Origin: Desulfobacterales bacterium HSG16 | GTDB taxonomy: Bacteria; Desulfobacterota; Desulfobacteria; Desulfobacterales; HSG16 | DNA: 64,000 nt | Direction of reading: 5' to 3' | Assembly: GCA_030377965.1 (NCBI GenBank) | Contig: JAUCGE010000006.1 | Coordinates: forward strand, 1 to 64,000 | In this document: in pieces, positions 21,248-64,000 of the stretch | Numbering within the stretch: position 1 is the stretch's first letter | How the letters are laid out: every line of letters begins with the position of its first letter | Made by a program: the position numbers and the translations under genes | Notes under the pieces: model-generated | The model's input: only the letters and a program-made list of their open reading frames with translations | Told to the model about the DNA's origin: nothing | The model's database searches: none

Positions 21248-21706
21248 ATGAGAAATCTCGCTGACATGACTGTCTATGATACTCATAGTCAATTATCCCT
21301 GGTTATCGAAGTGAAAAACAAATCGGGAACATCAAGTGACTGGGCTGCCAAAATGCGCCGTAATATTTTAGCGCATGGATTGATTCCATCCGCCACATTG
21401 TTCCTTCTTGCCCTTCCCGATCACTTTTATCTGTGGAAAAATGTCGGAATGATTTCGGGAGAAATTCCTCCAACATATGACATAAATCCAGAACCATTTT
21501 TAAAGCCCTATTATGACAGGATTGGAATCTCACCTGAAGGGCTTAGTGGAATAAGTTTTGAATTAATCGTTTTTTCCTGGTTGAACGAATTGAAATTAAC
21601 TGATACAATACCTTCTCATCTACCCCGTAAATTGCAAGATTGGTTGTTTGAATCTGGATTTTTTGAAGCAATTCAAGATGGACAAATAGAATCTGAGAAA
21701 ATATGA
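21248..21706 (+). CDS. small PD-(D/E)XK-like protein
   Basis: I do not recognise the family by name. The 152 residues begin with a segment that reads like a restriction-endonuclease-fold core: an Asp in VYDTHSQ, then LSLVIEVKNKSG with the E-x-K pair on a strand. SDWAAKMRRN follows, and then strands of a LFLLALPDHFYLWKN type. Such proteins often bind or cut nucleic acid, but activity is not shown. The ribosome site aaggtg precedes the ATG. The stop overlaps the next start (ATGA), so it is coupled to the PIN gene and the two probably act together. Confidence 0.6.
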   Translation: MRNLADMTVYDTHSQLSLVIEVKNKSGTSSDWAAKMRRNILAHGLIPSATLFLLALPDHFYLWKNVGMISGEIPPTYDINPEPFLKPYYDRIGISPEGLSGISFELIVFSWLNELKLTDTIPSHLPRKLQDWLFESGFFEAIQDGQIESEKI

Positions 21707-22314
21707 TGAATGTGTATGTCGAATCCAATTTTATCCTTGAATTAGCGTTGAAGCAAGAGCAATGTTCAAGCTGTGATGCCATCATGTCGCTGGGAGAAAA
21801 ACGGAATATTAAAATCATCCTTCCAGCGTTTTCTCTCTCAGAGCCTTATGATACGGTTATCAGGCGGTCGAAGGGAAGAGAATCCTTGACAAAAAAGCTT
21901 GCTTTGGAAATGCAGCAACTCTCTCGTTCAGAACCCTATAAAAACAAAGTTGAAGTGATCCAGCAGATCACAAGTTTCCTGGTTCAAAGCATTGAAGATG
22001 AACAGGAACGGCTTACCACAACGCTTGAAAAACTGCTTCAGGTTGCCGAAACCATCCCGCTGGAAAAAACAATTCTTTCTTCATCTGTCCGATTTCAAAA
22101 AACGTTTGGATTTTCTCCTCAAGATGCTATTATTTATGCTTCTGTCCTTGAGCATCTCCAGCTATCTGATAGCGATAAGAACTGTTTTTTGAATAGAAAC
22201 TCACGAGATTTCAATGATCCGAATATCGTCAATACATTGGAGGCATATAATTGTAAGATGCTCTTTAGTTTCGAGCGTGGCTATAATTACATTAACAGTC
22301 AAATAAAGGATTAG
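21703..22314 (+). CDS. PIN-domain protein
   Basis: PIN domains are metal-dependent ribonucleases, often toxins. The 203 residues start with VYVESNFILELAL, carrying the first acidic cluster (E/D near the N-terminus). They continue with an acidic SLSEPYDTVI and end with FSPQDAIIYASVLEHL and NRNSRDFND, which supply the later Asp/Asn positions of the fold. It is longer than VapC toxins (about 130 residues), owing to a helical insert around residues 65-110. It is coupled to the PD-(D/E)XK-like gene upstream, which could be the partner or antitoxin-like component. No typical VapB-like antitoxin is seen. Confidence 0.72.
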   Translation: MMNVYVESNFILELALKQEQCSSCDAIMSLGEKRNIKIILPAFSLSEPYDTVIRRSKGRESLTKKLALEMQQLSRSEPYKNKVEVIQQITSFLVQSIEDEQERLTTTLEKLLQVAETIPLEKTILSSSVRFQKTFGFSPQDAIIYASVLEHLQLSDSDKNCFLNRNSRDFNDPNIVNTLEAYNCKMLFSFERGYNYINSQIKD

Positions 22315-22611
22315 TGCTACATAAAAAAGTCAAGTGGAATGATGCTTTATCCTTTTTAAAAAAAGTTACAACATGGCTGATCCAAATTTTTTCAATCCAA
22401 GAGACTTTACCATTAATGATATTAATCAAAACAGTGGAATAATGAAGGAGGGTAGTATTTATGCTGGCATCTTGCAAGCATTGTGATCAGGTATTTTATT
22501 TATTATGAAATCTCTAAACACAAACCAAACGGATTATAAGAACAATTCATCATTATCGGAGGATAAATTGGATAATGACATGGAATTGGTCGAAACTGGA
22601 ATACATCGGTA
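22315..22611. other. gap inside the defence-like island
   Basis: Between the PIN gene and the methylase there is no supported gene apart from possible short ORFs of 37-41 codons without ribosome sites. It holds the tail of a dispersed repeat (22485-22515) and a 27-codon ORF at 22575-22658. That ORF is preceded by ggagg and may be the true 5' end of the methylase in another frame. Confidence 0.5.
22485..22515 (+). repeat. dispersed repeat, partial copy B
   Basis: The AT-rich tail of the dispersed element (gatcaggtattttatttatt, then gaaatctct) is present without the GC hairpin, matching the tail of copy D at 47113-47172. Confidence 0.6.
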
Positions 22612-22617
22612 TTGTTT

Positions 22618-25600
22618 ATGGAAGTTGTAAACACAATAAAAGAATTTGGATGTCATGATGTTGTTTTACTTGACGACGAACCAACATCCAGACATTTGAA
22701 CTACCTTGACCTTTTAAAAGTGTCCGGGAAAAGAAGTCTGACAGTCAGTGCCGTCGCTGAGTTCCAGTCAAGACCTCTGCTCTACATTGTCTCAAATGAC
22801 CGAATACAAGATTCCGACAACAATAAAATTCTTGATCTGCAATGCCTTCTGGCTAACAGGGGGGAGAGGGCATATCTTGGCATCTTGAGTCCGGGTGAGT
22901 TAAATGTATATCCTATAAACTTGAACCGTTTTGTTTTGGCTGGCGGAAATAAAAAAACCATTGAACGGAAGTCATCATCGGCATCACTGTTCTTTCAGAA
23001 TATTGTGAATGGCGCTTTCACCCTGGAAGGTCAGCCTGACGATTCTGATTATGTATTCAAGACAATCTATGACTTGATGACCATATCCTCTAAAAATCTC
23101 ATCAAAACCTATGGTATAGATCCTCTGGATGTCCTTTCATTTCTCGGCAGGGCATTGTTTCTCCGTTTCTTGTGGGATCGCAAAATAGTCAGTTCCAATG
23201 AACTTAATTCTATAAGTTCACATTCCGAATCGCCTGGTGACTGCTTTCGCAATGTTGAAAACTCCGTTGCATTATGCCAGTGGCTCGATAAAACATTTAA
23301 TGGTGATCTGCTTCCGCTCTCCGGCAGTTATAAAACCGTATTCGACCAGGCAAATGAACGGACAGACGGTAAAATTTTTCTCCACCTGCAAGCCATTATA
23401 GAAGGATGGAAGCATGCAGGGGCAGAACAATTTCAGCTTCAGATTGATTGGAACGATCTCAACTTCGCTCATATTCCAATAGGTGTACTCAGCCAGGTAT
23501 ATGAGAATTTCAGCAGAACATGGGATTTGCAGAAAACAAAACAAACGAGTGTATATTATACACCTGAGAACATAGCGAGCTACCTCGTGGCTGACGCATT
23601 CGAAGGTGTCAGCGACAAGAAAAATGCCCGAATTCTCGACCCAAGTTGCGGAGCGGGAACTTTCCTTGTCATGGCATTCAGGAAACTGGTCGCTTTCCGA
23701 TGGGAACATGATGGAAAAAGACCTGATACCAAAACAATTCAGTCCATTCTTTACAATCAACTTTGTGGTTTCGATATCAGTGAGCCTGCCCTGCGCCTTG
23801 CGGCATTGTCGCTTTATATTACCGCCATCGAACTCAATGGCTCTCCTCGACCTTTAAGAAGTCTGAAGTTTCCGAAACCGCTTCAAGGCATCGTGCTGCA
23901 TAATCACAGACGATCCGAAGAACGCGCGGCCAGGGGTTTTGTGTTGGGCAGTTTACGTTCGGATCTTTTCAAAGATTTCAATGGCAGTTTTGATATTATT
24001 ATCGGCAATCCTCCCTGGAGTCGCCTGAAAGGAAAGAAAGAAGAGATAAAAGCACTCAATGCCGTTTTCACCGAGTTGATTTGTCAAATTCTTGCAGATC
24101 GTGAGCTTGAAGATATAGCAAAAAGCTACCGCAATCCTGACAACAACCCTGATCTGCCGTTTTTATGGAAATCGACTCAATGGGCGAAACCAGGAGGTAT
24201 CATTGCAATGGCGCTGCCCGGAAGAATATTTCTCAAGCAGACAGGCCCCGGCACTCGTGCGTTCAATGCGATACTGAGAGGGCTTGAAATTACAGGAATA
24301 TTGAACGGGTCAAACCTGTCTGACAGTGCGGTATGGCCGGGTATGAATCAGCCTTTTATGCTTTTCTTCGCACGCAATCGAGTGCCTTCCACAAGCCATC
24401 ATTTTCATTTTGTCACGCCTCATTTTGAACGACAATTGAATGACAAAGGGCGTATCCGCATAGATTATCAAGCCGCTCAACCGGTAGCCGTCCGTGAAGT
24501 CATCGGAAATTCATGGCTGTTGAAAACACTGGCGATGGGTACTTCTCTTGATGTGGATGTGGTCAGCAAACTCGCTGACACAAGGTGGCCTTCTGTCAAG
24601 TCGTATTGGAAGAGCCAGGGGCTTTACTCGGGAAGAGGATATGATTTGTCACCCAGACAAGCAGATCAGGGGGATGCATCATTCATGCGCGGATTGCCCG
24701 ATTTCGTACTTCCTGGAAATAACGAGTTTTCGGTCGATGTAACATCACTACTCAAATTCAAGCATCCTACTGCAAGTAGGCCAAGACGCATTGAATTATA
24801 TACACCTCCAATGCTCATTGTTCCTGAATCATCGGGCAGTTCGCTCTTTTCACCCAGGTCATGGATCATTCGAGAATCCGTTGTTTTCCGTAAAAGCTAT
24901 TACGGCTTTTCCGCTCACGGCAGCAAGAATGCGGATGTGATCATCGCATTTCTTCATCTGATCACTAATTCCGACCTGTTCAGATATCATGTATTGATGA
25001 CCAGTTCGAGGATGGGCGCTGAACGACGAACTTTTCTAAAGGAGAATATCGAAAATTTTCCGTTTCCGGAAATAGATACGCTGTCTGGACAACAGCGAAA
25101 AAATGCGATGAAACTGTCTCATCAGCTTGAAACTGCCTCCGACAAACCCTGGAAGGCGATCAACGATTTTATTTTTGATATATACGGACTGGATAAGTAT
25201 GATCGCCAGGTCGTAAAAGACACGCTTGAAGTGGCCGATCCTTTCAAAGAAGCACGAGATCAAGCTAACAGTACCCCGACGAAAAAGGAACGCAATGCCT
25301 TTTATGCCATACTTCAACGGTTGCTCGCACCATCGTTCGACATAACGAATGAAAAGGTATCGATCCATGAAATCGAGCTTTCAGGTCAGGATATTCCTTC
25401 ACCCTGGTATTTTTTCGCAATTTCTTCATCCTCCGTTTCCGCAGATTTGACGCAAGATGTGCAGAAACGACTGCTCTCTCAAATTGTCAGGGATGCCTGC
25501 AAAACAGGTTGCAGCAGGGCCATAATTCACGAAAAGGGGCGACTGGTTGTAGGGATCATTGGCCAATATCGTTATTGGACATCGAGTCGTGCTCGTCTGT

Positions 25601-25656
25601 GTACACTGGACATTATGCGCCATCATCTCGATACCTTCCCCATTGGAGAAAGCTGA
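22618..25656 (+). CDS. N6-adenine DNA methylase (Eco57I/type IIG-like), possibly 5'-frameshifted
   Basis: The protein has about 1,012 residues. A helical N-terminal region is followed by the SAM-binding motif LDPSCGAGTFLVMAF (about residue 340) and the catalytic N6-adenine motif IIGNPPWSRLKG (about residue 465). A long target-recognition region and a C-terminal half like those of single-chain type IIG enzymes follow. No D-x(n)-E-x-K nuclease motif is evident at its N-terminus, so cleavage may come from the next gene. The listed start is the ATG at 22618, which has no good ribosome site. A better start with ggagg lies at 22575 in another frame; see findings. The stop overlaps the next ATG (TGATG). 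Confidence 0.85.
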   Translation: MEVVNTIKEFGCHDVVLLDDEPTSRHLNYLDLLKVSGKRSLTVSAVAEFQSRPLLYIVSNDRIQDSDNNKILDLQCLLANRGERAYLGILSPGELNVYPINLNRFVLAGGNKKTIERKSSSASLFFQNIVNGAFTLEGQPDDSDYVFKTIYDLMTISSKNLIKTYGIDPLDVLSFLGRALFLRFLWDRKIVSSNELNSISSHSESPGDCFRNVENSVALCQWLDKTFNGDLLPLSGSYKTVFDQANERTDGKIFLHLQAIIEGWKHAGAEQFQLQIDWNDLNFAHIPIGVLSQVYENFSRTWDLQKTKQTSVYYTPENIASYLVADAFEGVSDKKNARILDPSCGAGTFLVMAFRKLVAFRWEHDGKRPDTKTIQSILYNQLCGFDISEPALRLAALSLYITAIELNGSPRPLRSLKFPKPLQGIVLHNHRRSEERAARGFVLGSLRSDLFKDFNGSFDIIIGNPPWSRLKGKKEEIKALNAVFTELICQILADRELEDIAKSYRNPDNNPDLPFLWKSTQWAKPGGIIAMALPGRIFLKQTGPGTRAFNAILRGLEITGILNGSNLSDSAVWPGMNQPFMLFFARNRVPSTSHHFHFVTPHFERQLNDKGRIRIDYQAAQPVAVREVIGNSWLLKTLAMGTSLDVDVVSKLADTRWPSVKSYWKSQGLYSGRGYDLSPRQADQGDASFMRGLPDFVLPGNNEFSVDVTSLLKFKHPTASRPRRIELYTPPMLIVPESSGSSLFSPRSWIIRESVVFRKSYYGFSAHGSKNADVIIAFLHLITNSDLFRYHVLMTSSRMGAERRTFLKENIENFPFPEIDTLSGQQRKNAMKLSHQLETASDKPWKAINDFIFDIYGLDKYDRQVVKDTLEVADPFKEARDQANSTPTKKERNAFYAILQRLLAPSFDITNEKVSIHEIELSGQDIPSPWYFFAISSSSVSADLTQDVQKRLLSQIVRDACKTGCSRAIIHEKGRLVVGIIGQYRYWTSSRARLCTLDIMRHHLDTFPIGES

Positions 25657-26345
25657 TGGCGGCAGGTTTTTTTACGAAAGGCATAGAATACACATTGCCT
25701 CACCCGAAAATCCCGCAGCGTACGGTTCTGCTTCTTTGCAAGGTAATCGAAAAAGCCTGGAAGTTACTCGAAGAAAACCCGCCTTCCGGTTTTTACAGGC
25801 AATCCGCAGATGAAGACACAATTACCCAGATGCTGGTCGAAATAATTGAAAATCGTTTGCGGAAAAACGGTGACATTGCTGGATTCAACTCTGCTATGTT
25901 TGGCAAAGTGGACAGGGAGCCAAAGATTACAAACGTAGATAAAACACACCTCGACAAAATGCCTGACATAGTCTTCGATCTAAAACGTGAGCGACTGCCG
26001 ATTCTCAGTGATCAGGATGGACTATTCGTCGAGTGCAAACCCGTTGACCGTAAACATCCGATTGGGTCATGCTACTGTAAAAAAGGACTGATACGATTCG
26101 TGAACGGCAGCTACGCCTGGGCAATGCAGGATGCATTGATGGTCGGATACGTAACCCACCCTTATTCATTTAAAAAACTTGCATCTGTCCTCAATGATCG
26201 TAAAAAGGGTTCTATATATAATACTACTACCCACTCAAAAGTTGATAAATGTCTGATCTTTCGATCAAATCACGACAGGGATTTCAAATGGCCAGAAGGC
26301 AATGGTAAAGCTTGCGCTATAACAATATCACACCTTTGGCTGTAA
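25656..26345 (+). CDS. PD-(D/E)XK nuclease-like protein coupled to the methylase
   Basis: The 229-residue product starts at the ATG that overlaps the methylase stop. A longer ORF beginning inside the methylase is ignored. It contains a plausible restriction-fold core: Asp in KMPDIVFDL, then after about 20 residues LFVECKPVD with E-x-K, then a helix with GLIRFVNGSYAWAMQDALMVGYV. This makes it a good candidate for the endonuclease subunit of a restriction-modification-like unit with the upstream methylase. No homologue is recalled by name. Confidence 0.65.
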   Translation: MAAGFFTKGIEYTLPHPKIPQRTVLLLCKVIEKAWKLLEENPPSGFYRQSADEDTITQMLVEIIENRLRKNGDIAGFNSAMFGKVDREPKITNVDKTHLDKMPDIVFDLKRERLPILSDQDGLFVECKPVDRKHPIGSCYCKKGLIRFVNGSYAWAMQDALMVGYVTHPYSFKKLASVLNDRKKGSIYNTTTHSKVDKCLIFRSNHDRDFKWPEGNGKACAITISHLWL

Positions 26346-32100: not shown

Positions 32101-35100
32101 TCATTCGGAAGCCTTTTTGAGTCGTTCTTCTGCTTCTTGCGGTGTGATTTTCAAGATTTCGGCAATGGCTGCGGGTAGAATTTTGTCTTTGCTGGCTTGC
32201 CAGAGTCTGGCTAAACTATTTATCGTAATATTCAGGTCGTGTTCACCGCCAAATTCAAACGTAATTCCCAAATCCTTCAAGTAGTACTCACGAGCCTGAT
32301 CAAATAGTTGCTGTGCCTCGGATACTCTCCCCAACTGGTGGTAGGTGGAAGCCTGTGAATATCGGTCGTTGAATTCGATTTGGATTTTCAGAGCCTGCTG
32401 GTAGTAGTTCTCCGCCTGATCATATTGACGCTGTTCCTCGGACACTATCCCCAACTGGTGGTAGGTTCCAGCCTGTGAATATCGGTCGTTGAATTCGATT
32501 TTGATTTTCAGAGCCTGCTGGTAGTAGTTCTCCGCCTGATCATATTGACGCTGTTCCTCGGACACTATCCCCAACTGGTGATAGGTGGAAGCCTGTGAAT
32601 ATCGGTCGTTGAATTCGATTTTGATTTTCAGAGCCTGCTGGTAGTAGTTCTCCGCCTGATCATATTGACGCTGTTCCTGGGACACTCTCCCCAACTGGTG
32701 GTAGATTCTAGCCTGTGAATATCGGTCGTTGAATTCGATTTGGATTTTCAGAGCCTGCTGGTAGTAGTTCTCCGCCTGATCATATTGACGCTGTGCCTGA
32801 GAAATCACGCCAAGTTCGTGATACGTGGTAGCTTTATGCATACTTTTGGACTTCTCATCCATTTTATCCAATGAATCAATATGCTTCAAAGCTTTCTGAT
32901 AAGACTTTTCCGATGCTTCGTAGAGATTAGTAAATCTTTGGCGTCTGGCAATATCCCCTATGGTTCTGAGAAGATCAAATCCCAAATCCCCTGAAATCAA
33001 ATCTGCAGGGTATTTTTCTAAATCAGACAATACCATTTGTCCAAACTCTATCCCTCTTTGATGATCCTGAGTTATATCTATGTATTCATCAATAGCTGTA
33101 TAAATTTCACTGATCGAAACCCGTTCTCCCAAAGCCAGCTTCAACCCCGTCATCAAATTCTCATACTCCAAACGAGTAAGAACCTGCCCCGTCTGCTTTT
33201 CCTGAGCTTCTTTGGACGTAAGCATTTGCCCCAAAGCTCCCCCTACTCCATCATAAAACTGCCGAAAAGCCCTTTCAACAGCCTGCCGAAAATCAGAAGA
33301 AGCATCATTCAACCGTGCGCGAAGAAAATAAGGAAAAATCGGCTGAAGATGCAAAAATATGGGAATCTCATGGGACGTAAGCAACCCCCAGTTGCCAGCC
33401 TCTTTCAGCACCTCCTCGAAATTCTCGAAAGGCAGATCCGCCAGTTTTTCCTGTGCCTTTAGTTTTTCGATGTATTGCGGCAAATGGCTGATATCAATCA
33501 CCCCGGTAAAAGGCGCAATACAAAGCAGTAATTTCTGTGCATCTTCAGAAAGATTGCTGTGGGAGTAATCAATACATTTCAAGATACTCTCGGTTTTCTC
33601 CCCTGAATCTTTCTTTGGATCAAGAGCCACAACACCAGCCTGCAAAGCTTTCAGCACATCCGCAGGAGTCTGCCGTGACAGGTTTGCGAGAACTACTTCC
33701 AAAGGCAGGGGATAACCGTCCAGAAGCTTGAGCAGGCTTTTAAATTCATCCGATTTTCGATATTGCTCCAGGGTCGAATTATCTTGAACATGCCGCTTCA
33801 AGATCCGATCTGCCAGGGTGGAAGCGGCTTCGGAATCAAGACCCGGCAAGTCATAGATATCGGTCTTTCTCAATGGTGCGTTGGCTCCATCCACCAGCCA
33901 TGCCTCACCGCCCCGGCTTCCCAGAAGCACGAGAGTTTCCCCGTCCAGGAGATCAGCTAAGAAATTCCGCAATATCTCACGCTCCTCAATCGGCAGAGTA
34001 TTTTGAATGGCCAGATTCTCGCCGGTCACGGACTCCAGATTATCCAGAATCAGCAGATGACGCTTGTTCCTCAGTTTTTGAGCGAGATTTTTTGCCTGTG
34101 CCTGGGGAGCCAGGGAGCGAAACCCTATCATTTCAGGAGAAACAGCCATACCGGAGGGAAGTGCCGCCTGCCCTGCGGGTTGAAACAAACCTGCAGCGAT
34201 TTCATCCATGATCTGGTGAAGAGTCCAGGCTTTCTCGTCATATCCGAAATAGAAAACCTCTTTTACAAACCGGGTGGTCTGCCACCATTCCCCGAGATGG
34301 CGCAGCAGGGAAGTCTTGCCAGCACCTCCCATCCCGCGAATGAAAAGAAGGTTGCGCCGCTTTCCCTCGTTTTTTTGCAAAAGCCGCTTTTCTATTTGAA
34401 GAATATCCAGGTCACGGCCCACAAAACCGTATTCCGGCTCAATGGCCGTAAACCCGACAGCCTGCCTATTATAAAAAGCTGCGGATTCCTCAAGCGTAAA
34501 CTCCCGGAATTCAAGCGAAGTTTTCGCATTCGCGCCCCCGGTTTGATACGCCACGGGCAGCATCCAGTCTTCAAGCTTGATGCATTGATTGAAATATGCC
34601 CTGCGTTCCTTGTCTCCATAGAGTGCCGCACGGGAATGAACAAAGGCTTTGGACAAATCGTTATTCTCGAACAGGCTCCGATAAAAATTCTTCATCAAAA
34701 GCTCTGCTGCGCTCACCGTGACCGTATAGCCCATTGCAAGAACTGTCCGAACACCTGCCTGAAGCAGTCGGCTGCCCAGGCTGGTTTCTTCTACCGCTCC
34801 CACCTGCTTTCCGGACTGGCAGGCGTTTAAAACAGCCACGGGGATATGATGATCAATCAAAAGTTCTGCCAATTCACCCGATTCTGCCGGATCTGACCGG
34901 CCTTCCTGTTCTCCCTCGAAGAAAAGAAAAGCTTTTTTTCCGTCAAAAGGCTCCATATCCGACCTGCCATATCGTTGGAAAAGATGAGTGTCGGTATCAA
35001 TCTCTGCGGTCTTTACCTGATCAAATTCCATCAAAGCGCCATGCATGTCAAAATGGATGATATGATAATATCCGACTCCGTGATTGTCCCGCATTTTCCT

Positions 35101-35721
35101 GAGATGTTCGGTCAATGCCCTGTAAGTTCCGGGCCGGAGGATATCCACACGAACAGGCAGCTCCGCCTTACGCAGGCTTCCAACCAATGGCCGGGAGATT
35201 GTGCGATACCCCACATCGGATTTACCTCCTGGTCGGGCAGTCACCACGAGCAGGTTGATGACAGGCGAAGGCTGGACATTCAAAGTGGCCGCAACCGGAT
35301 CGACACCGCACCGAACCATCGGAGCGTCGATGACAAAGGCTTTTGGCTGTTTCGGATCTTTTAACGCCTCCCAATGGAGCTTGTGAAATCCCGGAGATCC
35401 CACAATCTCGAACTTCAAGGCACTCACGCCCTCAGCTTTGGCCTGCCCGTATCGGCTGAACAAGTCAAAATCTTGTTTGAAGACCTGCTCGAATAGCTGT
35501 TCTCCATACGCTTTGACGCTCGCAGCAGCCTCTTTTGCCCGAACCTGGTGTAAAAAAGGCATACACAGATGCTGCTCGAAATACCACTCAAGAAGTTTTT
35601 CATCCTGTTCTGAAAACGGATCATTGACAGTTACGGGAAAATTCCCCTGGTTATCGAAGCTGACTGCAGCATTTGGACTCTGGTCGAAACTAGCTGTCTC
35701 GCATATGGTTATTACTGTCAT
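32101..35721 (-). CDS. CHAT protease-NTPase-TPR conflict protein
   Basis: The 1,206-residue protein combines an N-terminal CHAT (caspase-like) domain with an NB-ARC/NACHT-like NTPase and a C-terminal TPR array. The CHAT dyad is His227 in YYHIIHFDMHG and Cys301 in VAVLNACQSG. The P-loop is at about 463-471 (GMGGAGKTS), with Walker B in HLLILDNLES. A helical region follows, then TPRs (about 950-1150). Four of the TPRs are almost identical 40-residue copies of YYQQALKI.IEFNDRYSQA..YHQLG..S. Such proteins are sensor-activated proteases in bacterial conflict systems. It lies 31 bp after the EACC1-like gene, in one operon. Confidence 0.92.
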   Translation of the reverse strand: MTVITICETASFDQSPNAAVSFDNQGNFPVTVNDPFSEQDEKLLEWYFEQHLCMPFLHQVRAKEAAASVKAYGEQLFEQVFKQDFDLFSRYGQAKAEGVSALKFEIVGSPGFHKLHWEALKDPKQPKAFVIDAPMVRCGVDPVAATLNVQPSPVINLLVVTARPGGKSDVGYRTISRPLVGSLRKAELPVRVDILRPGTYRALTEHLRKMRDNHGVGYYHIIHFDMHGALMEFDQVKTAEIDTDTHLFQRYGRSDMEPFDGKKAFLFFEGEQEGRSDPAESGELAELLIDHHIPVAVLNACQSGKQVGAVEETSLGSRLLQAGVRTVLAMGYTVTVSAAELLMKNFYRSLFENNDLSKAFVHSRAALYGDKERRAYFNQCIKLEDWMLPVAYQTGGANAKTSLEFREFTLEESAAFYNRQAVGFTAIEPEYGFVGRDLDILQIEKRLLQKNEGKRRNLLFIRGMGGAGKTSLLRHLGEWWQTTRFVKEVFYFGYDEKAWTLHQIMDEIAAGLFQPAGQAALPSGMAVSPEMIGFRSLAPQAQAKNLAQKLRNKRHLLILDNLESVTGENLAIQNTLPIEEREILRNFLADLLDGETLVLLGSRGGEAWLVDGANAPLRKTDIYDLPGLDSEAASTLADRILKRHVQDNSTLEQYRKSDEFKSLLKLLDGYPLPLEVVLANLSRQTPADVLKALQAGVVALDPKKDSGEKTESILKCIDYSHSNLSEDAQKLLLCIAPFTGVIDISHLPQYIEKLKAQEKLADLPFENFEEVLKEAGNWGLLTSHEIPIFLHLQPIFPYFLRARLNDASSDFRQAVERAFRQFYDGVGGALGQMLTSKEAQEKQTGQVLTRLEYENLMTGLKLALGERVSISEIYTAIDEYIDITQDHQRGIEFGQMVLSDLEKYPADLISGDLGFDLLRTIGDIARRQRFTNLYEASEKSYQKALKHIDSLDKMDEKSKSMHKATTYHELGVISQAQRQYDQAENYYQQALKIQIEFNDRYSQARIYHQLGRVSQEQRQYDQAENYYQQALKIKIEFNDRYSQASTYHQLGIVSEEQRQYDQAENYYQQALKIKIEFNDRYSQAGTYHQLGIVSEEQRQYDQAENYYQQALKIQIEFNDRYSQASTYHQLGRVSEAQQLFDQAREYYLKDLGITFEFGGEHDLNITINSLARLWQASKDKILPAAIAEILKITPQEAEERLKKASE
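32341..32820. repeat. 120-bp tandem repeats encoding identical TPRs
   Basis: Four consecutive 120-bp units, differing at only a few positions, encode 40-residue TPR copies. A fifth, more diverged unit lies on the upstream-coding side. The near identity of the DNA argues for recent expansion or gene conversion. Confidence 0.92.
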
Positions 35722-39973: not shown

Positions 39974-40840
39974 TCAAAACCGTTTTGCATTTTTGAATTC
40001 ATTGATATAATCTCGAATTTCCCGATCTACTCTGTTATTCAATCTACTTGCCAATGTAAAACGCAAATCATCACCTTTTCGCGGTCGAAAAGCCAGGTTC
40101 AATCTTCGCAGCACTCGTTTGCCATCAAGCAGACGGTTTATTCGCTCCCATCTTACAATAGATGGACTATCATTATTTTCAGAAAAACTTTCGATTTTTT
40201 CCACATAAACGTTCAATTTCTCTATTTCTCCATCATCTAATTTTTCACGGACGAATTTTTCTGTCTTCTCTTTGAGTATCTCAAAATCCGGAATTCTATC
40301 AAGTTTAGTTCCAAAATTTCTTCCGTTCTCATTAAAAAGTATAGAGGCAGCGGATAAAACTTTAATTTCTTCTGCAAGATCATTCAAGAAAAAATTGACT
40401 GCATCAGGAAACTGTTTTGTGCGTCCGTCACGATCAGCCATGACCTCTTCCAATATATCAGGCACAAGAAGATAATTCTCCAGTTCCCATCTTTTGAGTA
40501 TTCTGATCGACTCTCCGAATGGCCTGGCCTGATTGAATTTCTGGTCATCTGCTTCCCACCACAAATCCCAACAGCCCTCTCTCATAAGAACATCTCTGTC
40601 AACAATTCCGAAAACGATATGGCCAGCATCTTTATCTTGCTTGACTCTTTTGATAACTTCATTCGCCCCACCGCCTTCACCTTCATCCACTGACCTGAAA
40701 TCTATCATCTCGCCTTGATCGAAAAACCATCGATCATTTATGATGAGGCAATCTTCTTCTGATTCCAGATATACGATCACGCGTTCAAAATATTGATCCG
40801 CTATTACCTCAGATTGTCGATATTTTTTAAAACCGGGCAT
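39974..40840 (-). CDS. TOPRIM/DUF4435-like effector of ATPase pair 1
   Basis: From the ATG at 40840 the protein has 288 residues. The N-terminal half reads as a TOPRIM-type core: VIVYLESEEDCLIINDRWF (catalytic Glu), then HIVFGIVDRDVL (D-x-D). LKRWELENYLL follows, as in DUF4435/OLD-type nucleases. The rest is helical and not recognised. It follows the ATPase gene by 19 bp. The ATPase-TOPRIM order recalls PARIS (AriA/AriB) and split OLD systems. Start choice: the longer ORF would overlap the ATPase, and its extra residues are basic and unlike the family. Confidence 0.68.
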   Translation of the reverse strand: MPGFKKYRQSEVIADQYFERVIVYLESEEDCLIINDRWFFDQGEMIDFRSVDEGEGGGANEVIKRVKQDKDAGHIVFGIVDRDVLMREGCWDLWWEADDQKFNQARPFGESIRILKRWELENYLLVPDILEEVMADRDGRTKQFPDAVNFFLNDLAEEIKVLSAASILFNENGRNFGTKLDRIPDFEILKEKTEKFVREKLDDGEIEKLNVYVEKIESFSENNDSPSIVRWERINRLLDGKRVLRRLNLAFRPRKGDDLRFTLASRLNNRVDREIRDYINEFKNAKRF

Positions 40841-40859
40841 ATCACATCCATTGTGTTGT

Positions 40860-42002
40860 TTATTCCAACCCTTCTTTAATGATCTCTCCCCCTTTACGTA
40901 TTCCATCTTCAGGAACCTCGAAACCAAAGGCTTCCAGCATTGCCAGTGAATGAGATGCCGCAATTATGGTGATACCTGGATAATTTTTCACGAGCATTCT
41001 GAAAAGCTTCATGAGTCTGTGCTGCCAGCGGGGATGGAGATGCACATTCGCTTCATCGATCAGCACAATCGTACAGCGGGTCATATGAGTTCCGATCTGA
41101 AAAAACATCTCTGTAAGATTTTTTTCACCGCTGCTCAATCTGTCGAGCCTGTGGGTTTGATCACCGTTTGCCACAACTACTTCTGGAGGCTGCCGTCTAA
41201 TACTTTTAATGAATTTTGTACTTCCTTTAAAGACCCTTTCATTTACGAACTCAACAGCTTTTTCAAATCTTCCGTCATCCAGCCATTTCAGCCACACAAA
41301 AAGATTGTCCAGGGAATATGACCATTGTTTTCCCTGTGCGTTGAAAAAATATACGGGTTGATAACCCCATTGTTCCGGTTCGGAGATCGTTCTTCTCGCG
41401 CTTTTTATCAAAGGAATATCACGATAGGAAGTAAAATAAAGAAGCGCTGGAAGTGATGTTGATGTGCTTGCAAAATCTTGAGGAGGTTCCCCTGTAGATC
41501 CCCGGATAACTGCCATCAATTCTTTTACCAGATCATCCTCTGCACCGACAGTTTCTAAAAAACCCTTGACGTGCCGCCTGAAACCGGTTCTGTGCCAACT
41601 TGATGCAGTGTATTTTTTCAAATCTCTGTCCTGCCAGATTTTCAAAACGGCATTTTTACTCAGGTTTCCTGCCAGGATAGACAGAATAATAGTTTCATCC
41701 CTCCCCTGTCGATTCAGTGTTACACAGACATCCCATTGAGCACGGCCTCTGCCTGTATCCAGATCTTCATGGCCAAATAAGTCAGGAGACTTTTCCCCCA
41801 AAAGGTTCATCAGGCGCGCCATCAAATCGAGCAATGTCGTCTTGCCTCGTCCATTTTCCGACATGAAAAGGAAAAGATTGCAGGATATATCCTGCTCATC
41901 CGTGAAATCCACTTCATATGGCTGATCCTGAAAAGGTCCCACCCCATCCACTGTGAGAAAAATCGGTTTAAAAGATAATACTTTCAACTCATCATCTGGC
42001 AT
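40860..42002 (-). CDS. ABC/SMC-type ATPase of pair 1
   Basis: The 380 residues are a single RecF/AAA_21-like ATPase: Walker A SENGRGKTTLL, an ABC signature LSSGEKNLTEMF, Walker B CTIVLIDEANVHLHPRW and the switch His in AASHSLAML. Such ATPases sense phage or foreign components and control a partner nuclease. A gagg ribosome site is present. The operon is closed by the TOPRIM-like gene. It is not closely similar to the ATPase of pair 2, so the two loci look independently acquired. Confidence 0.85.
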   Translation of the reverse strand: MPDDELKVLSFKPIFLTVDGVGPFQDQPYEVDFTDEQDISCNLFLFMSENGRGKTTLLDLMARLMNLLGEKSPDLFGHEDLDTGRGRAQWDVCVTLNRQGRDETIILSILAGNLSKNAVLKIWQDRDLKKYTASSWHRTGFRRHVKGFLETVGAEDDLVKELMAVIRGSTGEPPQDFASTSTSLPALLYFTSYRDIPLIKSARRTISEPEQWGYQPVYFFNAQGKQWSYSLDNLFVWLKWLDDGRFEKAVEFVNERVFKGSTKFIKSIRRQPPEVVVANGDQTHRLDRLSSGEKNLTEMFFQIGTHMTRCTIVLIDEANVHLHPRWQHRLMKLFRMLVKNYPGITIIAASHSLAMLEAFGFEVPEDGIRKGGEIIKEGLE

Positions 42003-51295: not shown

Positions 51296-52600
51296 ATGCA
51301 GATTCAAAGAATTCAAATAAAAAATCTTTTTGGAATGTTCGATCATGATATCAATCTGAAAATCAAAGACAGGATAACGATTATTCACGGCCCGAATGGC
51401 ATCGGAAAAACGACTGTCTTGAAACTGTTAAAAGAAATATTCGATATACGGTTCTGTGCTTTGCAACCTGTTCCGTTTTTAGAAATTATTATAACATTTG
51501 TCAATCAATATAAACTTCACCTCCAAAAAAAAGATACAGGAGATATGATTCTGACTCTTAAGGAAGGAGATGAAACACTGATTGAGCATGAAATGAACAT
51601 TTCGATATTGAATAAACAAACAGGTGAACATAAAATTGGCCCCAAAGATTTTATGTCTCATTTAGATCGTGTTGGGCCTAACAAATGGTATGATAAGAGT
51701 ACTGGCGACACTATTTTCGAAACAGATGGTAGTCATGGAGTTCCGATAGAAACCATAATAAAAAAACCGCCTAAAAAAATTGAAAAGATTTTAAAAGATT
51801 TTAGAACGTATTTTTTAGAGACACAAAGGCTCACGACCTCATCTTCTAAAGATTATGACAATCATGACCTGAAAACAAAAATATTGAATAATGTTGAAAA
51901 ATATTCGATTGAAATGACTGAAATACTACAGGAAGCTATAAAGGAATCAGCTTCAATTGCAGCTTCTCTGGACAGGACATTCCCTCATAGGTTGTTTAAG
52001 TCAGAACTACCAGAAAATGCGAATGAAATTGAAATCAGAAAAAGGTATCAAAATCAAAGTTCCTACCGGCAACGATTGATGAAAGCCGGTTTATTGGAAG
52101 TATTGGAAGAAGAGGAATCAGTCTCTCTTCCTGATGGTAACCTGGAAAGTAACGATCTAAAATTCCTTTGGTATTATATATCTGATATGGATACCAAGCT
52201 GGAAGTTTTCAGTCCACTGCTTAAAAAGATTGAACTCTTCAAAGATATTATCAATTCAAGGCTTTTATATAAATCTTTTTCAATTGAAAAATCCGAAGGC
52301 TTTGTTTTTTTATCTGATAATGGAGAAAAAATTCCACCGAAAACTCTTTCTTCAGGTGAACAACATGAAATTGTTTTAGCATATGAATTGATATTTAAAG
52401 TTGAAAAAAAATCCTTTATCATGATTGACGAACCTGAATTATCGCTTCATGTTACATGGCAGCATAAACTTTTAAGCGATCTTGAAAGAATTTCAAAGCT
52501 TGTCGATCTGGATTTTCTCATTGCCACACATTCGCCATCAATCGTTCATGATCGCCGATCTTTGATGGTTGCACTGGAAAAGGAAAGCGATCATGCTTGA
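51296..52600 (+). CDS. ABC/SMC-type ATPase of pair 2 (AriA-like)
   Basis: The 434 residues open with RIQIKNLFGMFDHDI, then Walker A IIHGPNGIGKTTVLKLL. The middle is a long coiled, helical insert. The C-terminal half carries TLSSGEQHEIVLAYEL, Walker B SFIMIDEPELSLHVTWQ and the switch His in IATHSPSIVHD. This is the AAA_15/21-type ATPase that forms the scaffold of PARIS and related systems. It overlaps the following gene by 8 bp. More AT-rich than its neighbours by eye, which fits a transferred cassette. Confidence 0.85.
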   Translation: MQIQRIQIKNLFGMFDHDINLKIKDRITIIHGPNGIGKTTVLKLLKEIFDIRFCALQPVPFLEIIITFVNQYKLHLQKKDTGDMILTLKEGDETLIEHEMNISILNKQTGEHKIGPKDFMSHLDRVGPNKWYDKSTGDTIFETDGSHGVPIETIIKKPPKKIEKILKDFRTYFLETQRLTTSSSKDYDNHDLKTKILNNVEKYSIEMTEILQEAIKESASIAASLDRTFPHRLFKSELPENANEIEIRKRYQNQSSYRQRLMKAGLLEVLEEEESVSLPDGNLESNDLKFLWYYISDMDTKLEVFSPLLKKIELFKDIINSRLLYKSFSIEKSEGFVFLSDNGEKIPPKTLSSGEQHEIVLAYELIFKVEKKSFIMIDEPELSLHVTWQHKLLSDLERISKLVDLDFLIATHSPSIVHDRRSLMVALEKESDHA

Positions 52601-53471
52601 TTATGCCACACCAGCCTCTCTTGTTGCCGAAATCGATATGATGCGTACCGCATTTTCAGGAGCTATTTTATTATTGGAAGGTGAAAGCGACAGTAAATTT
52701 TTTCAAAAATTCATTGATGATAATCACTGCAATATTCTCATAGCACAAGGCAAGGAAAATGCGGTCGATGCAATAAAAATTGCAAACTCCGAAGGGAAAA
52801 AAGGAGCTTTAGCCATTATTGATGCCGATTTCTGGAGAATAGATGAATATGAATGCCCTCATGACAATTTGCTTATGGCAGATGACCATGATATCGAATC
52901 GATGATTTTTAACAGCGAGGCTTTTGATCTCATTAAAAATGAATATTGCTCAAAAGAAAAAATCGGCAAGTTCGATGATTTGAAGCGTTATATTTACGAT
53001 AGGGCTTTTCCAATCGCTGTTCTCAGGTTTTTGTCGCATAACAAGCGGCTGGAACTGGTTTTCAAAAAAATTGATTATAAAAAGATTACAGAAAAAGGAA
53101 GTATAGATATTAAGGAAGAGATTCTTATCAAAAATATCATATCTCAGACAAAAGAAAATGCTAAAAATAAAGGCAAATCAACAACCTTGCCATCTGATGA
53201 TGCCATTTTAGAGGCATGGAGCCAAATGGCAGTTAAATGTCGAGATTATGAATTATCGGAATTATGTTGCGGTCATGATTTGACAGAATTATTCGCCAGG
53301 GGATTACGAACAGTTTTTGCAAATCAGGATAAAGCTGTAGCAAACCGGGAGAATATGGAAAAAGTTTTCAGACTTTCCTTTGATACAACTCATTTTAATA
53401 AAACAGCTTTAAGTGGCTTGATTAAAGACTGGGAACAAAACAATAGCCATTTTCGCATTCTAACAGACTGA
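52593..53471 (+). CDS. DUF4435/TOPRIM effector of pair 2 (AriB-like)
   Basis: The 292 residues carry a clear DUF4435-type TOPRIM core. ILLLEGESDSKFFQKFI has the catalytic Glu; IAQGKENAVDAIKIA and GALAIIDADFWRI supply the Asp pair. DDHDIESMIFNSEAF follows. AriB-type proteins are released from the ATPase by phage anti-restriction proteins and then cleave tRNA; that function is known for PARIS and is inferred here. The ATG at 52593 overlaps the ATPase stop, with aggaaa upstream. A hairpin with U-run follows at 53597-53638. Confidence 0.82.
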   Translation: MLDYATPASLVAEIDMMRTAFSGAILLLEGESDSKFFQKFIDDNHCNILIAQGKENAVDAIKIANSEGKKGALAIIDADFWRIDEYECPHDNLLMADDHDIESMIFNSEAFDLIKNEYCSKEKIGKFDDLKRYIYDRAFPIAVLRFLSHNKRLELVFKKIDYKKITEKGSIDIKEEILIKNIISQTKENAKNKGKSTTLPSDDAILEAWSQMAVKCRDYELSELCCGHDLTELFARGLRTVFANQDKAVANRENMEKVFRLSFDTTHFNKTALSGLIKDWEQNNSHFRILTD

Positions 53472-61760: not shown

Positions 61761-64000
61761 TTATCTTCCGGTTTTTGTTTTTGCTTCTGGTTTGATGTTC
61801 AGCTTTTTTATCAAATCGTCACATGCTTTTTCGAGCATGGCTTCAGAGTTTTTCATAGAGCATGTACGGACAGGTTCGTCTTCCAGCCAGTCTGCGAGAA
61901 TGGCACGGACCGCCGCCTGTGGTGACCAGGCTTGAGTTTTTAATAACGCGAGATCTGAGAGCAGCATTTTTCTGTCTTGTGCCGGTAATCCTTTTGGAAA
62001 GAAGAATTTCAGGATTTCGTTGTCATTGTCGAGCCAGTTTTTTAATTTCAGCAAGTTTTCGCGTTTTTGTTCCTCTAATGGGATGCCGTTTTCATCAAAG
62101 AGGTTCAGGTGCTTCGGAAGCGGTTCTCCTATTCTGTGGCCTCTGCGTTTTACCATTTCTGGGGATTCGGACTGTTCTGCAAACCAGTCCTGTCCGGCGT
62201 AGTGATAAAAGTATCTTTCGAGAGCCTGATAGAATGAGAGAAGAACTTCTTTATAAGGATTATGTTTATTGATATAGTTCTCGACAATGGACATTTTTGT
62301 TTTTATACTTTCTGGAATACTTAGCGACTGTGACTGCGACTGTGACCGCGACCGTAACCGAGACTGTGACTGCGACTGAGACCGCAACCGAGACCGCAAC
62401 CGAGACCGCGAGTGCAGCAGCAACCACGACCGCAACCGAGACCACGACCAAGACCGCGACCACACTCGCGACTGCGACTGCGACCGCGACAGTAACCGCG
62501 ACCGTTTTTTTGAAAATAAAAAAAAATGTTTTCCTAAAGAAATTGTTTCAAAAAAAACTATTGCCTGATAAAAGGCAGTTCCGAGACTGGTGCGGCGACA
62601 GAGATTTTGTCTGGGAAATAAGGAAAGTAAAACAGAAGGTTGGCTACAATAATTATGATAATCATCATTATATAATTCTCCCTGTAAAACTATAATATCA
62701 GGGGCGATCCGCCCAACTGCCTTTTTCCATAATTCACCTTTATCCGGTACAATCGCATCAAGGATATTTCCTGCATTTGTAATTACAGGAACGAGAGAAT
62801 CATCATCGTTCTCTCTATACCATAGACTTGAAGATGCCTGTGAATCAGATGAATATTTCGGATTCATACGTTCTTCGAACCAGCCTGCTATGGAATTTGT
62901 CAAAGGACTGTCAAACGGAAGAACATAAGAATACGAATCATTGTTATCAGATGCCCACTCTGTGTCGATAACAATACTCAACAGGCTGTAAGCCCTGGCT
63001 TCCTCTTCTCCAAAACCGCCACTCCATGTCGAATCGTTTGGAGGGGGCATCCACCTGTCTTTGAGAGACTTGAAATAAGGATAGCTTTCAAGCTCTTCAA
63101 TTCCGGGAGGAATACAATCGTCCAGACGATCTTCCAGCACCTTCCATAATGACTCATGATCATAATCGTCAAAAAGTTCTTTAATAAGATTCAGCCCTGA
63201 TTGCCTTAAATTTTCAGGCCATTGGGATAACTGCTCACCAAAGCCTCTATCTGGATGTGTCAGGAAGCATCCGACGGCAACAGGTAACCATGCTTCCCGT
63301 TCTTCGTCTGTAAAAGGCAATTCCCTGCCTTTCAAAGCTTTAACCAACAAACCAGCCTGATGGCCGTTTGACAGATCCAGCCATGTCAGCATCTCGAAAT
63401 GGCCTTCGTTCTGGGTTTCTTCGGCATGAATGGCCAAAAGAAGCATTCCAACTTCATCCCATCCGGGTTGTCCTATGCGGGAAAATAATTCTGTTTTAAG
63501 ATATGTTTTCAAGCCCTTTACCCTGCCCCGGCCATATAAAAAATCAGCACACAGATATTCCTGAAAACTGAGATGAGCGAATTGAATCTTTTCCGGTTCA
63601 GGTTCTATCAAAAGTCCTGCCGGATGCATGAAATAATTTAGAATGTCTTCACAAGATTCGTTTTTCAGCACAGTAAAACGGCCATATTTCCTTCCTGACA
63701 GTTGAACTTTTATAGCTTCAAGCAGTTTCTCCTTTTTCCAGACTACCTGTCTTTTCTGCTTATCGCTGTTTTTTTCTTCGCTCCCTTTTTTCTGGCTCAA
63801 CCATGCAAGGTATCCCAAAACCATCCGTTTTTCCTGATCAGGCCAGTGGGGCATAATTTTGCCCTCTTTTGTCTCTTTCAAACGCCGGCTGCGCTCCTGA
63901 CGTATCAGGTATAAATCTACAATTGCCTTATACAACGCCGCACGGCCATGCGGCATTTCGTTTCGTGAACAATGAACCAGAGCCATCAGAGTTAAAAAGA
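61761..64000 (-). CDS. NACHT NTPase, C-terminal part (5' end beyond the window)
   Basis: The frame is open to the window edge; the ATG at 63986 is internal. Residues MALVHCSRNEMPHGRAALYKAIVDLYL and FAHLSFQEYLCADFL are the helical end of a NACHT module, whose P-loop must lie upstream of the window. The long C-terminal sensor part is not recognised. At 62325-62504 a run of some 30 six-bp units encodes an Arg/Ser/Gln-rich stretch (SRSQSQSR-type), followed by about 180 ordinary residues. NACHT proteins are often phage sensors, so this one is likely a defence gene. Confidence 0.85.
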   Translation of the reverse strand, partial: FLTLMALVHCSRNEMPHGRAALYKAIVDLYLIRQERSRRLKETKEGKIMPHWPDQEKRMVLGYLAWLSQKKGSEEKNSDKQKRQVVWKKEKLLEAIKVQLSGRKYGRFTVLKNESCEDILNYFMHPAGLLIEPEPEKIQFAHLSFQEYLCADFLYGRGRVKGLKTYLKTELFSRIGQPGWDEVGMLLLAIHAEETQNEGHFEMLTWLDLSNGHQAGLLVKALKGRELPFTDEEREAWLPVAVGCFLTHPDRGFGEQLSQWPENLRQSGLNLIKELFDDYDHESLWKVLEDRLDDCIPPGIEELESYPYFKSLKDRWMPPPNDSTWSGGFGEEEARAYSLLSIVIDTEWASDNNDSYSYVLPFDSPLTNSIAGWFEERMNPKYSSDSQASSSLWYRENDDDSLVPVITNAGNILDAIVPDKGELWKKAVGRIAPDIIVLQGELYNDDYHNYCSQPSVLLSLFPRQNLCRRTSLGTAFYQAIVFFETISLGKHFFLFSKKRSRLLSRSQSQSRVWSRSWSWSRLRSWLLLHSRSRLRSRLRSQSQSQSRLRSRSQSQSQSLSIPESIKTKMSIVENYINKHNPYKEVLLSFYQALERYFYHYAGQDWFAEQSESPEMVKRRGHRIGEPLPKHLNLFDENGIPLEEQKRENLLKLKNWLDNDNEILKFFFPKGLPAQDRKMLLSDLALLKTQAWSPQAAVRAILADWLEDEPVRTCSMKNSEAMLEKACDDLIKKLNIKPEAKTKTGR
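62325..62504. repeat. degenerate 6-bp tandem repeat (gaccgc-type) in the NACHT gene
   Basis: About thirty six-bp units of the type gaccgc, gactgc, gagacc run without a break. All are in frame, giving Ser-Arg/Gln dipeptides in the coding frame. All three frames on either strand remain largely open, which is why a long TETATV-type ORF appears on the plus strand. Confidence 0.9.

Follow-up and report, generated by a model that had tools for sequence, protein, structure and literature searches.

In type IIG restriction enzymes cutting and methylation are carried out by one polypeptide, and separate M and R genes represent the classical type II arrangement. LexA is the repressor that cleaves itself when RecA has been activated upon DNA damage, releasing the genes under its control. 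Dedicated control of immune operons has been described in other forms. CapW/BrxR, CapH+CapP and CapK+CapS regulate immune operons next to them in response to DNA damage; the paper that deals with them does not mention LexA (PMC13373217). RptR represses a phage defence island that includes restriction-modification genes; the paper on it mentions neither LexA nor SOS (PMC12255303). In the literature that could be searched, no restriction operon was found to be described with a LexA-type repressor of its own. Here, a window of 64,000 nt (contig JAUCGE010000006.1 of Desulfobacterales bacterium HSG16) was analysed with respect to four genes labelled P1 to P4. Our observations make it probable that these genes represent two independent modules lying side by side, and that P3-P4 is a two-polypeptide restriction-modification system whose ancestral dedicated LexA repressor has been lost in the window.

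The four ORFs, all on the + strand, were confirmed at positions 21248-26345 from the ORF list and the sequence (Table 1). The original prediction had described them as two coupled pairs running in one direction, and both stop/start overlaps proved to be real. The listed start of P3 is a TTG codon at 22612; the alignment of homologues favours the ATG at 22618. The two pairs are separated by a gap of 303 bases, and the end of this gap is the relic of a fifth, lexA-like gene. No terminator-like site was found on the + strand between P2 and P3, so that shared transcription is possible in the window. The search of the region against Rfam and the tRNA scan of the window gave nothing. Profile searches matched P2 and P3 to families; P1 and P4 matched no family in Pfam, PADLOC or NCBIfam. 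Between P2 and P3, a short open stretch at 22373-22483 (MADPNFFNPRDFTINDINQNSGIMKEGSIYAGILQAL) is perhaps a fragment of another gene. Directly downstream of P4 (26422-26478) lies an inverted repeat (GGTAGGGCGGGGTTCCGTCTCCGCC) whose arms of 25 bases are 96% complementary and enclose a loop of 7 bases; it is either REP-like or a terminator.

Table 1. Features of the P1-P4 locus in the window.
Feature	Position	Strand	Description
P1	21248-21706	+	152 aa; upstream member of the PIN pair; conserved D6...E21-x-K23 (PD-(D/E)XK-like)
P2	21703-22314	+	203 aa; PIN-domain protein (PIN_12, PF16289); overlaps P1 by ATGA
Intergenic DNA	22315-22581	.	30% G+C; unrelated to the upstream DNA of any P3-P4 relative
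Relic, 3' end of lexA-like gene	22582-22620	+	one-base insertion; stop codon changed to TGG
P3	22618-25656	+	1012 aa; N6-adenine DNA methylase with target-recognition region and N-terminal domain
P4	25656-26345	+	229 aa; PD-(D/E)XK nuclease-like partner of P3; TGATG overlap

P3 was identified as an N6-adenine methylase by two Pfam families, both above the cut-off (Eco57I, 1.4e-12; N6_Mtase, 2e-12), and matched the PADLOC model of type IIG enzymes (REase_MTase_IIG) with 3.4e-25. In an alignment of 33 sequences it keeps the conserved NPPW and CGAG regions. The N-terminal domain is conserved in 29-33 homologues, yet it has no conserved E-x-K motif. The earlier description of P3 as a type IIG-like methylase without a visible nuclease motif was thereby borne out. 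Residues 1-308 were modelled with a pLDDT of 84.7, and Foldseek revealed no significant solved relative of this N-terminal model; RecU was among the weak matches, which were not taken as evidence. P3 resembles type IIG enzymes of the Eco57I/MmeI type in its methylase region and is of similar length, but it lacks their one-polypeptide organisation: P3 has no conserved E-x-K motif, and the motif of a nuclease is found in a separate 229-residue protein, P4. Over the methylase core, P3 also shows weak similarity to the methylases of BREX (PglX) and MADS; however, its scores are far under the NCBIfam cut-offs (41 of 900 for PglX, 52 of 720 for MAD2), and no other BREX or MADS genes were found beside P3-P4.

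In P4, residues E53, P103-D104, E126 and K128 as well as further residues are invariant among 37 sequences, and two more conserved motifs, H206-x-R208 and H226-x-W228, lie outside the core. The AlphaFold2 model (pLDDT 88.7, pTM 0.87) consists of a helix (53-69), three strands (82-87, 105-109 and 122-130), a second helix (136-149) and a further strand (159-166). This is the alpha-beta-beta-beta-alpha-beta order of the PD-(D/E)XK core, with D104, E126 and K128 in the elements where they are expected. The proposed D..E-x-K character of this 229-residue protein was thus supported by the invariant residues and by the predicted structure. A Foldseek search of the PDB with the model gave nothing at E <= 0.001, so the family appears divergent and its assignment rests on the motif and the order of the elements; weak matches included the PD-(D/E)XK proteins VC1899, EcoO109I and HamA and were not taken as evidence. 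P4, which has no Pfam, NCBIfam or PADLOC model, represents an undescribed small family of putative nucleases and would supply the PD-(D/E)XK nuclease activity of the pair.

The distribution of the pair was surveyed by scanning one genome per species, which yielded 41 loci with P4 relatives of 34-77% identity. P3 directly precedes P4 in all 40 evaluable loci, and the two were never found apart; the remaining locus (L026) starts inside P4 at a contig end, so that P3 could not be evaluated. The loci range over Desulfobacterota, Acidobacteriota, Planctomycetes and Proteobacteria. On plasmids of Pseudomonas, Burkholderia, Agrobacterium and Allorhizobium a methylase gene likewise stands before the P4 relative, in the Burkholderia plasmid split into two ORFs. 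The pair is also present on one viral contig; a search for P4 in phages found none. Two assemblies carry two copies each: Desulfobacteraceae assembly S24.Bin080 has two different ones on two small contigs (L012, L013), and Geobacter sp. UBA6151 has two as well (L019, L023). The elements of a type II restriction-modification system are present, namely a methylase with intact motifs (P3) and, judged by motif and predicted fold order, a partner nuclease (P4). In the simplest reading P3 would recognise and methylate DNA and P4 would cut it, and the two would probably act jointly. The idea of a split type IIG unit, which implies that P4 depends on P3, is compatible with this conserved methylase/PD-(D/E)XK pair.

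A lexA-like gene of about 205-240 codons was found directly upstream of P3 in 20 loci, often overlapping it by the four bases ATGA. In all five proteins tested, both LexA_DNA_bind and Peptidase_S24 were above the Pfam cut-off, and the Ala-Gly site, the serine in GDSM and the lysine in ATLK are visible in the sequences. The 20 P3-linked LexA proteins, which carry seven phylum labels, are split by one branch (98/96) from 11 other LexA proteins of the window's phylum, and both kinds occur in the same genome in one Geobacter and one Desulfobacteraceae. An exact CTG-N10-CAG box lies within 130 bases upstream of the lexA-like gene in 13 of the 20 loci (by chance, 0.035 per 120 bases or about 0.8 over the 20 loci would be expected); most of the genes without an exact box have one that is a single position off. 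The upstream regions of the other lexA genes examined contained no box of this kind. CTG-N10-CAG is therefore predicted to be the operator of the LexA-like repressor. From what is known of the LexA family, an autoregulated and damage-inducible P3-P4 operon can be predicted, and by analogy its control in the relatives would depend on RecA.

The repressor is not needed everywhere, since a lexA-like gene is lacking near P3 at 15 of the P3-P4 loci. The upstream gene of Pseudomonas, Burkholderia and Thiohalocapsa encodes a protein of 151-163 residues that looks MerR-like by eye; two of these proteins were searched against Pfam, and neither matched a family. On two rhizobial plasmids the upstream protein is annotated as XRE, and the one tested has weak similarity to HTH_3. 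As the upstream regulators differ while P3-P4 stays constant, the regulator appears to be exchangeable. It is about evenly balanced, in our judgement, whether the ancestral operon was a restriction-modification system under its own RecA-sensing, self-cleaving repressor of the LexA type, co-inherited across several phyla, repeatedly lost and apparently exchangeable.

Of the lexA-like gene, the window retains no more than the final ~40 bases. Positions 22582-22635 align with the lexA/P3 junction of one relative (L017) at 85% (E 9e-11), and left of 22582 no significant similarity to the upstream region of any relative was found. Everything on that side, P1-P2 included, is by this comparison unrelated to the upstream DNA of the P3-P4 family. 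A short ORF at 22506 (MKSLNTNQ...) was considered as the 5' end of the lexA gene and rejected, as the DNA comparison backs the 3' end only, from 22582. The window copy has neither an intact repressor gene nor an operator: CTG-N10-CAG is absent near P1 and upstream of P3, and a CTGT-N8-ACAG box is absent from the window. LexA_DNA_bind was not found in the window's genome (80% complete), which means little because half of 30 genomes searched likewise had none. Decayed remnants of the lexA-like gene were detected upstream of P3 in three relatives as well (L007, 1050-1265; L008, 1591-1734; L022, 6775-6966), and the loss is therefore recurrent. L007 and L008 retain most of the promoter region, and in L007 the P3 frame is broken as well. 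The P3 and P4 frames of the window are intact and differ from those of the relatives mostly at third codon positions.

The first pair has a distribution of its own. P2 is a PIN protein as originally proposed (PF16289, 2.9e-12, above the Pfam cut-off), with E7, E47, D141 and D169 invariant among the aligned homologues. The E-x-K motif noted in P1 was confirmed, since D6, E21 and K23 are invariant in the six sequences aligned. Homologues of P1 occur on cyanobacterial plasmids, most of them 39-44% identical, and the overlapping P1-P2 pair is found on plasmids of Tolypothrix/Microchaete, Nostoc, Gloeothece and Hymenobacter, where the P2 relative always adjoins the P1 relative; in Chroococcidiopsis the PIN gene is interrupted by an insertion of the IS200/IS605 type. 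On the cyanobacterial and Hymenobacter plasmid regions examined, relatives of P3 or P4 were neither annotated nor detected. The known distribution covers plasmids and one phylum: among 297 genomes of the phylum, P1 was present in the window copy only. Viral contigs scanned with P1 and with P2 contained no relatives, and a PIN_12 search in 20 relatives gave distant PIN proteins with no P1 relative in their stretches. As P1-P2 and P3-P4 are each found without the other, P1-P2 is regarded as an acquired, separate unit; it is probably a module of plasmids with a toxin-antitoxin-like or defensive role. As in VapBC-type pairs, a small upstream gene overlaps a PIN gene, often on plasmids, and P2 would correspond to the PIN toxin. 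Unlike in these pairs, P1 matches no antitoxin family, so that a recognisable DNA-binding partner is missing, and carries a conserved D...E-x-K motif, and the PIN domain is of the PIN_12 family.

Three other explanations were weighed against these results. The original prediction had suggested that the four genes may be one compound defence system, in which P3-P4 would restrict and P1-P2 would serve as a back-up abortive-infection RNase; in the window the four may share one transcript. The common direction, the 303-base gap and the lack of a + strand terminator-like site between the pairs fit such a system, and with the lexA-like promoter lost P3-P4 is left without its former regulation. However, the other 40 loci with P3-P4 contain neither P1 nor P2, although in 32 of them the DNA upstream of P3 extends for 1.4 kb or more; P3 and P4 are absent from the P1-P2 plasmid regions examined, P1 is absent from the 296 other genomes of the phylum, and the junction, lying within a gene that was lost, is a scar. 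Conserved co-occurrence of the four genes in unrelated genomes was not found, and outside the window the loci surveyed showed the two pairs apart. We give a compound system very little credence and retain two independent modules. That the window's P3-P4 is a dying remnant, non-functional since the loss of the regulator and awaiting decay, is somewhat less remote and still improbable. The regulator has decayed in the window and in three relatives, one of them (L007) with a broken P3 frame too, but the window's P3 and P4 are of full length and keep their invariant residues. The bias towards third codon positions also speaks against decay, although this pattern averages the whole divergence and not the time since the loss.

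An alternative that concerns P3-P4 itself, namely that it is a classical type II pair with DNA recognition by P4 alone and not a split type IIG unit, is unlikely and yet the strongest of the three. P3 and P4 are separate genes as in the classical M/R arrangement, and P4, with its 229 residues, has motifs beyond the core that agree with a self-sufficient enzyme. On the other hand, P3 is like type IIG methylases in length and region, as the PADLOC match indicates, and is never found apart from P4. Moreover, its N-terminal domain is kept in all homologues without an E-x-K motif, as expected if the nuclease function had moved to the partner.

Further genes of the window deserve mention. A 1206-residue protein with CHAT peptidase-like, NB-ARC-like ATPase and TPR regions is encoded at 32101-35721 (-) (Pfam CHAT 5.3e-15, NB-ARC 1.2e-5, TPR_12 2.1e-43), a layout known from bacterial conflict systems. 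Two gene pairs, at 39974-42002 (-) and 51296-53471 (+), each seem by eye to combine an AAA ATPase with a TOPRIM- or DUF4435-like partner and are possibly defence genes. At 61761-63986 (-) lies an ORF of 741 residues in which Ser, Arg, Gln, Leu and Trp make up a long stretch of low complexity (SRSQSQSR...).

According to the preferred reading of two separate modules, P3 would recognise and methylate DNA, and the P4 nuclease would probably join it in attacking sites that lack methylation. The operon of many relatives opens with the gene of a LexA-type repressor, which would bind CTG-N10-CAG operators located before that gene; upon DNA damage, activated RecA would cause this repressor to cleave itself and the operon would be released. 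In the lineage of the window, a rearrangement would have taken the operator and all but the last ~40 bases of the repressor gene. With both removed, expression of P3-P4 would be constitutive or would depend on transcripts that come through the foreign P1-P2 upstream. The supposed four-gene system is thus replaced by two conserved modules and the rearrangement of one of them. The novelty lies in the LexA-linked ancestral form of P3-P4 and in the recurrence of its loss. As the window and three relatives keep P3-P4 with a decayed regulator, they would, if LexA control is confirmed, provide a natural test of what happens when a restriction system loses its repressor.

LexA control of P3-P4, if confirmed, would couple restriction directly to the SOS signal. 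Like RptR, the P3-P4 LexA-like protein would be a dedicated repressor of restriction-modification genes. Like CapW/BrxR, CapH+CapP and CapK+CapS, it is a repressor at the start of an immune operon from which a response to damage is expected, and like CapH, which is inactivated by proteolysis, it would be proteolytically inactivated. In contrast to the Cap controllers, a single LexA/S24 protein is predicted both to sense RecA and to cleave itself, and it has been lost in the window. If this holds true, the LexA-like repressor of the restriction-modification operon would add another class to the controllers by which immune operons respond to DNA damage.
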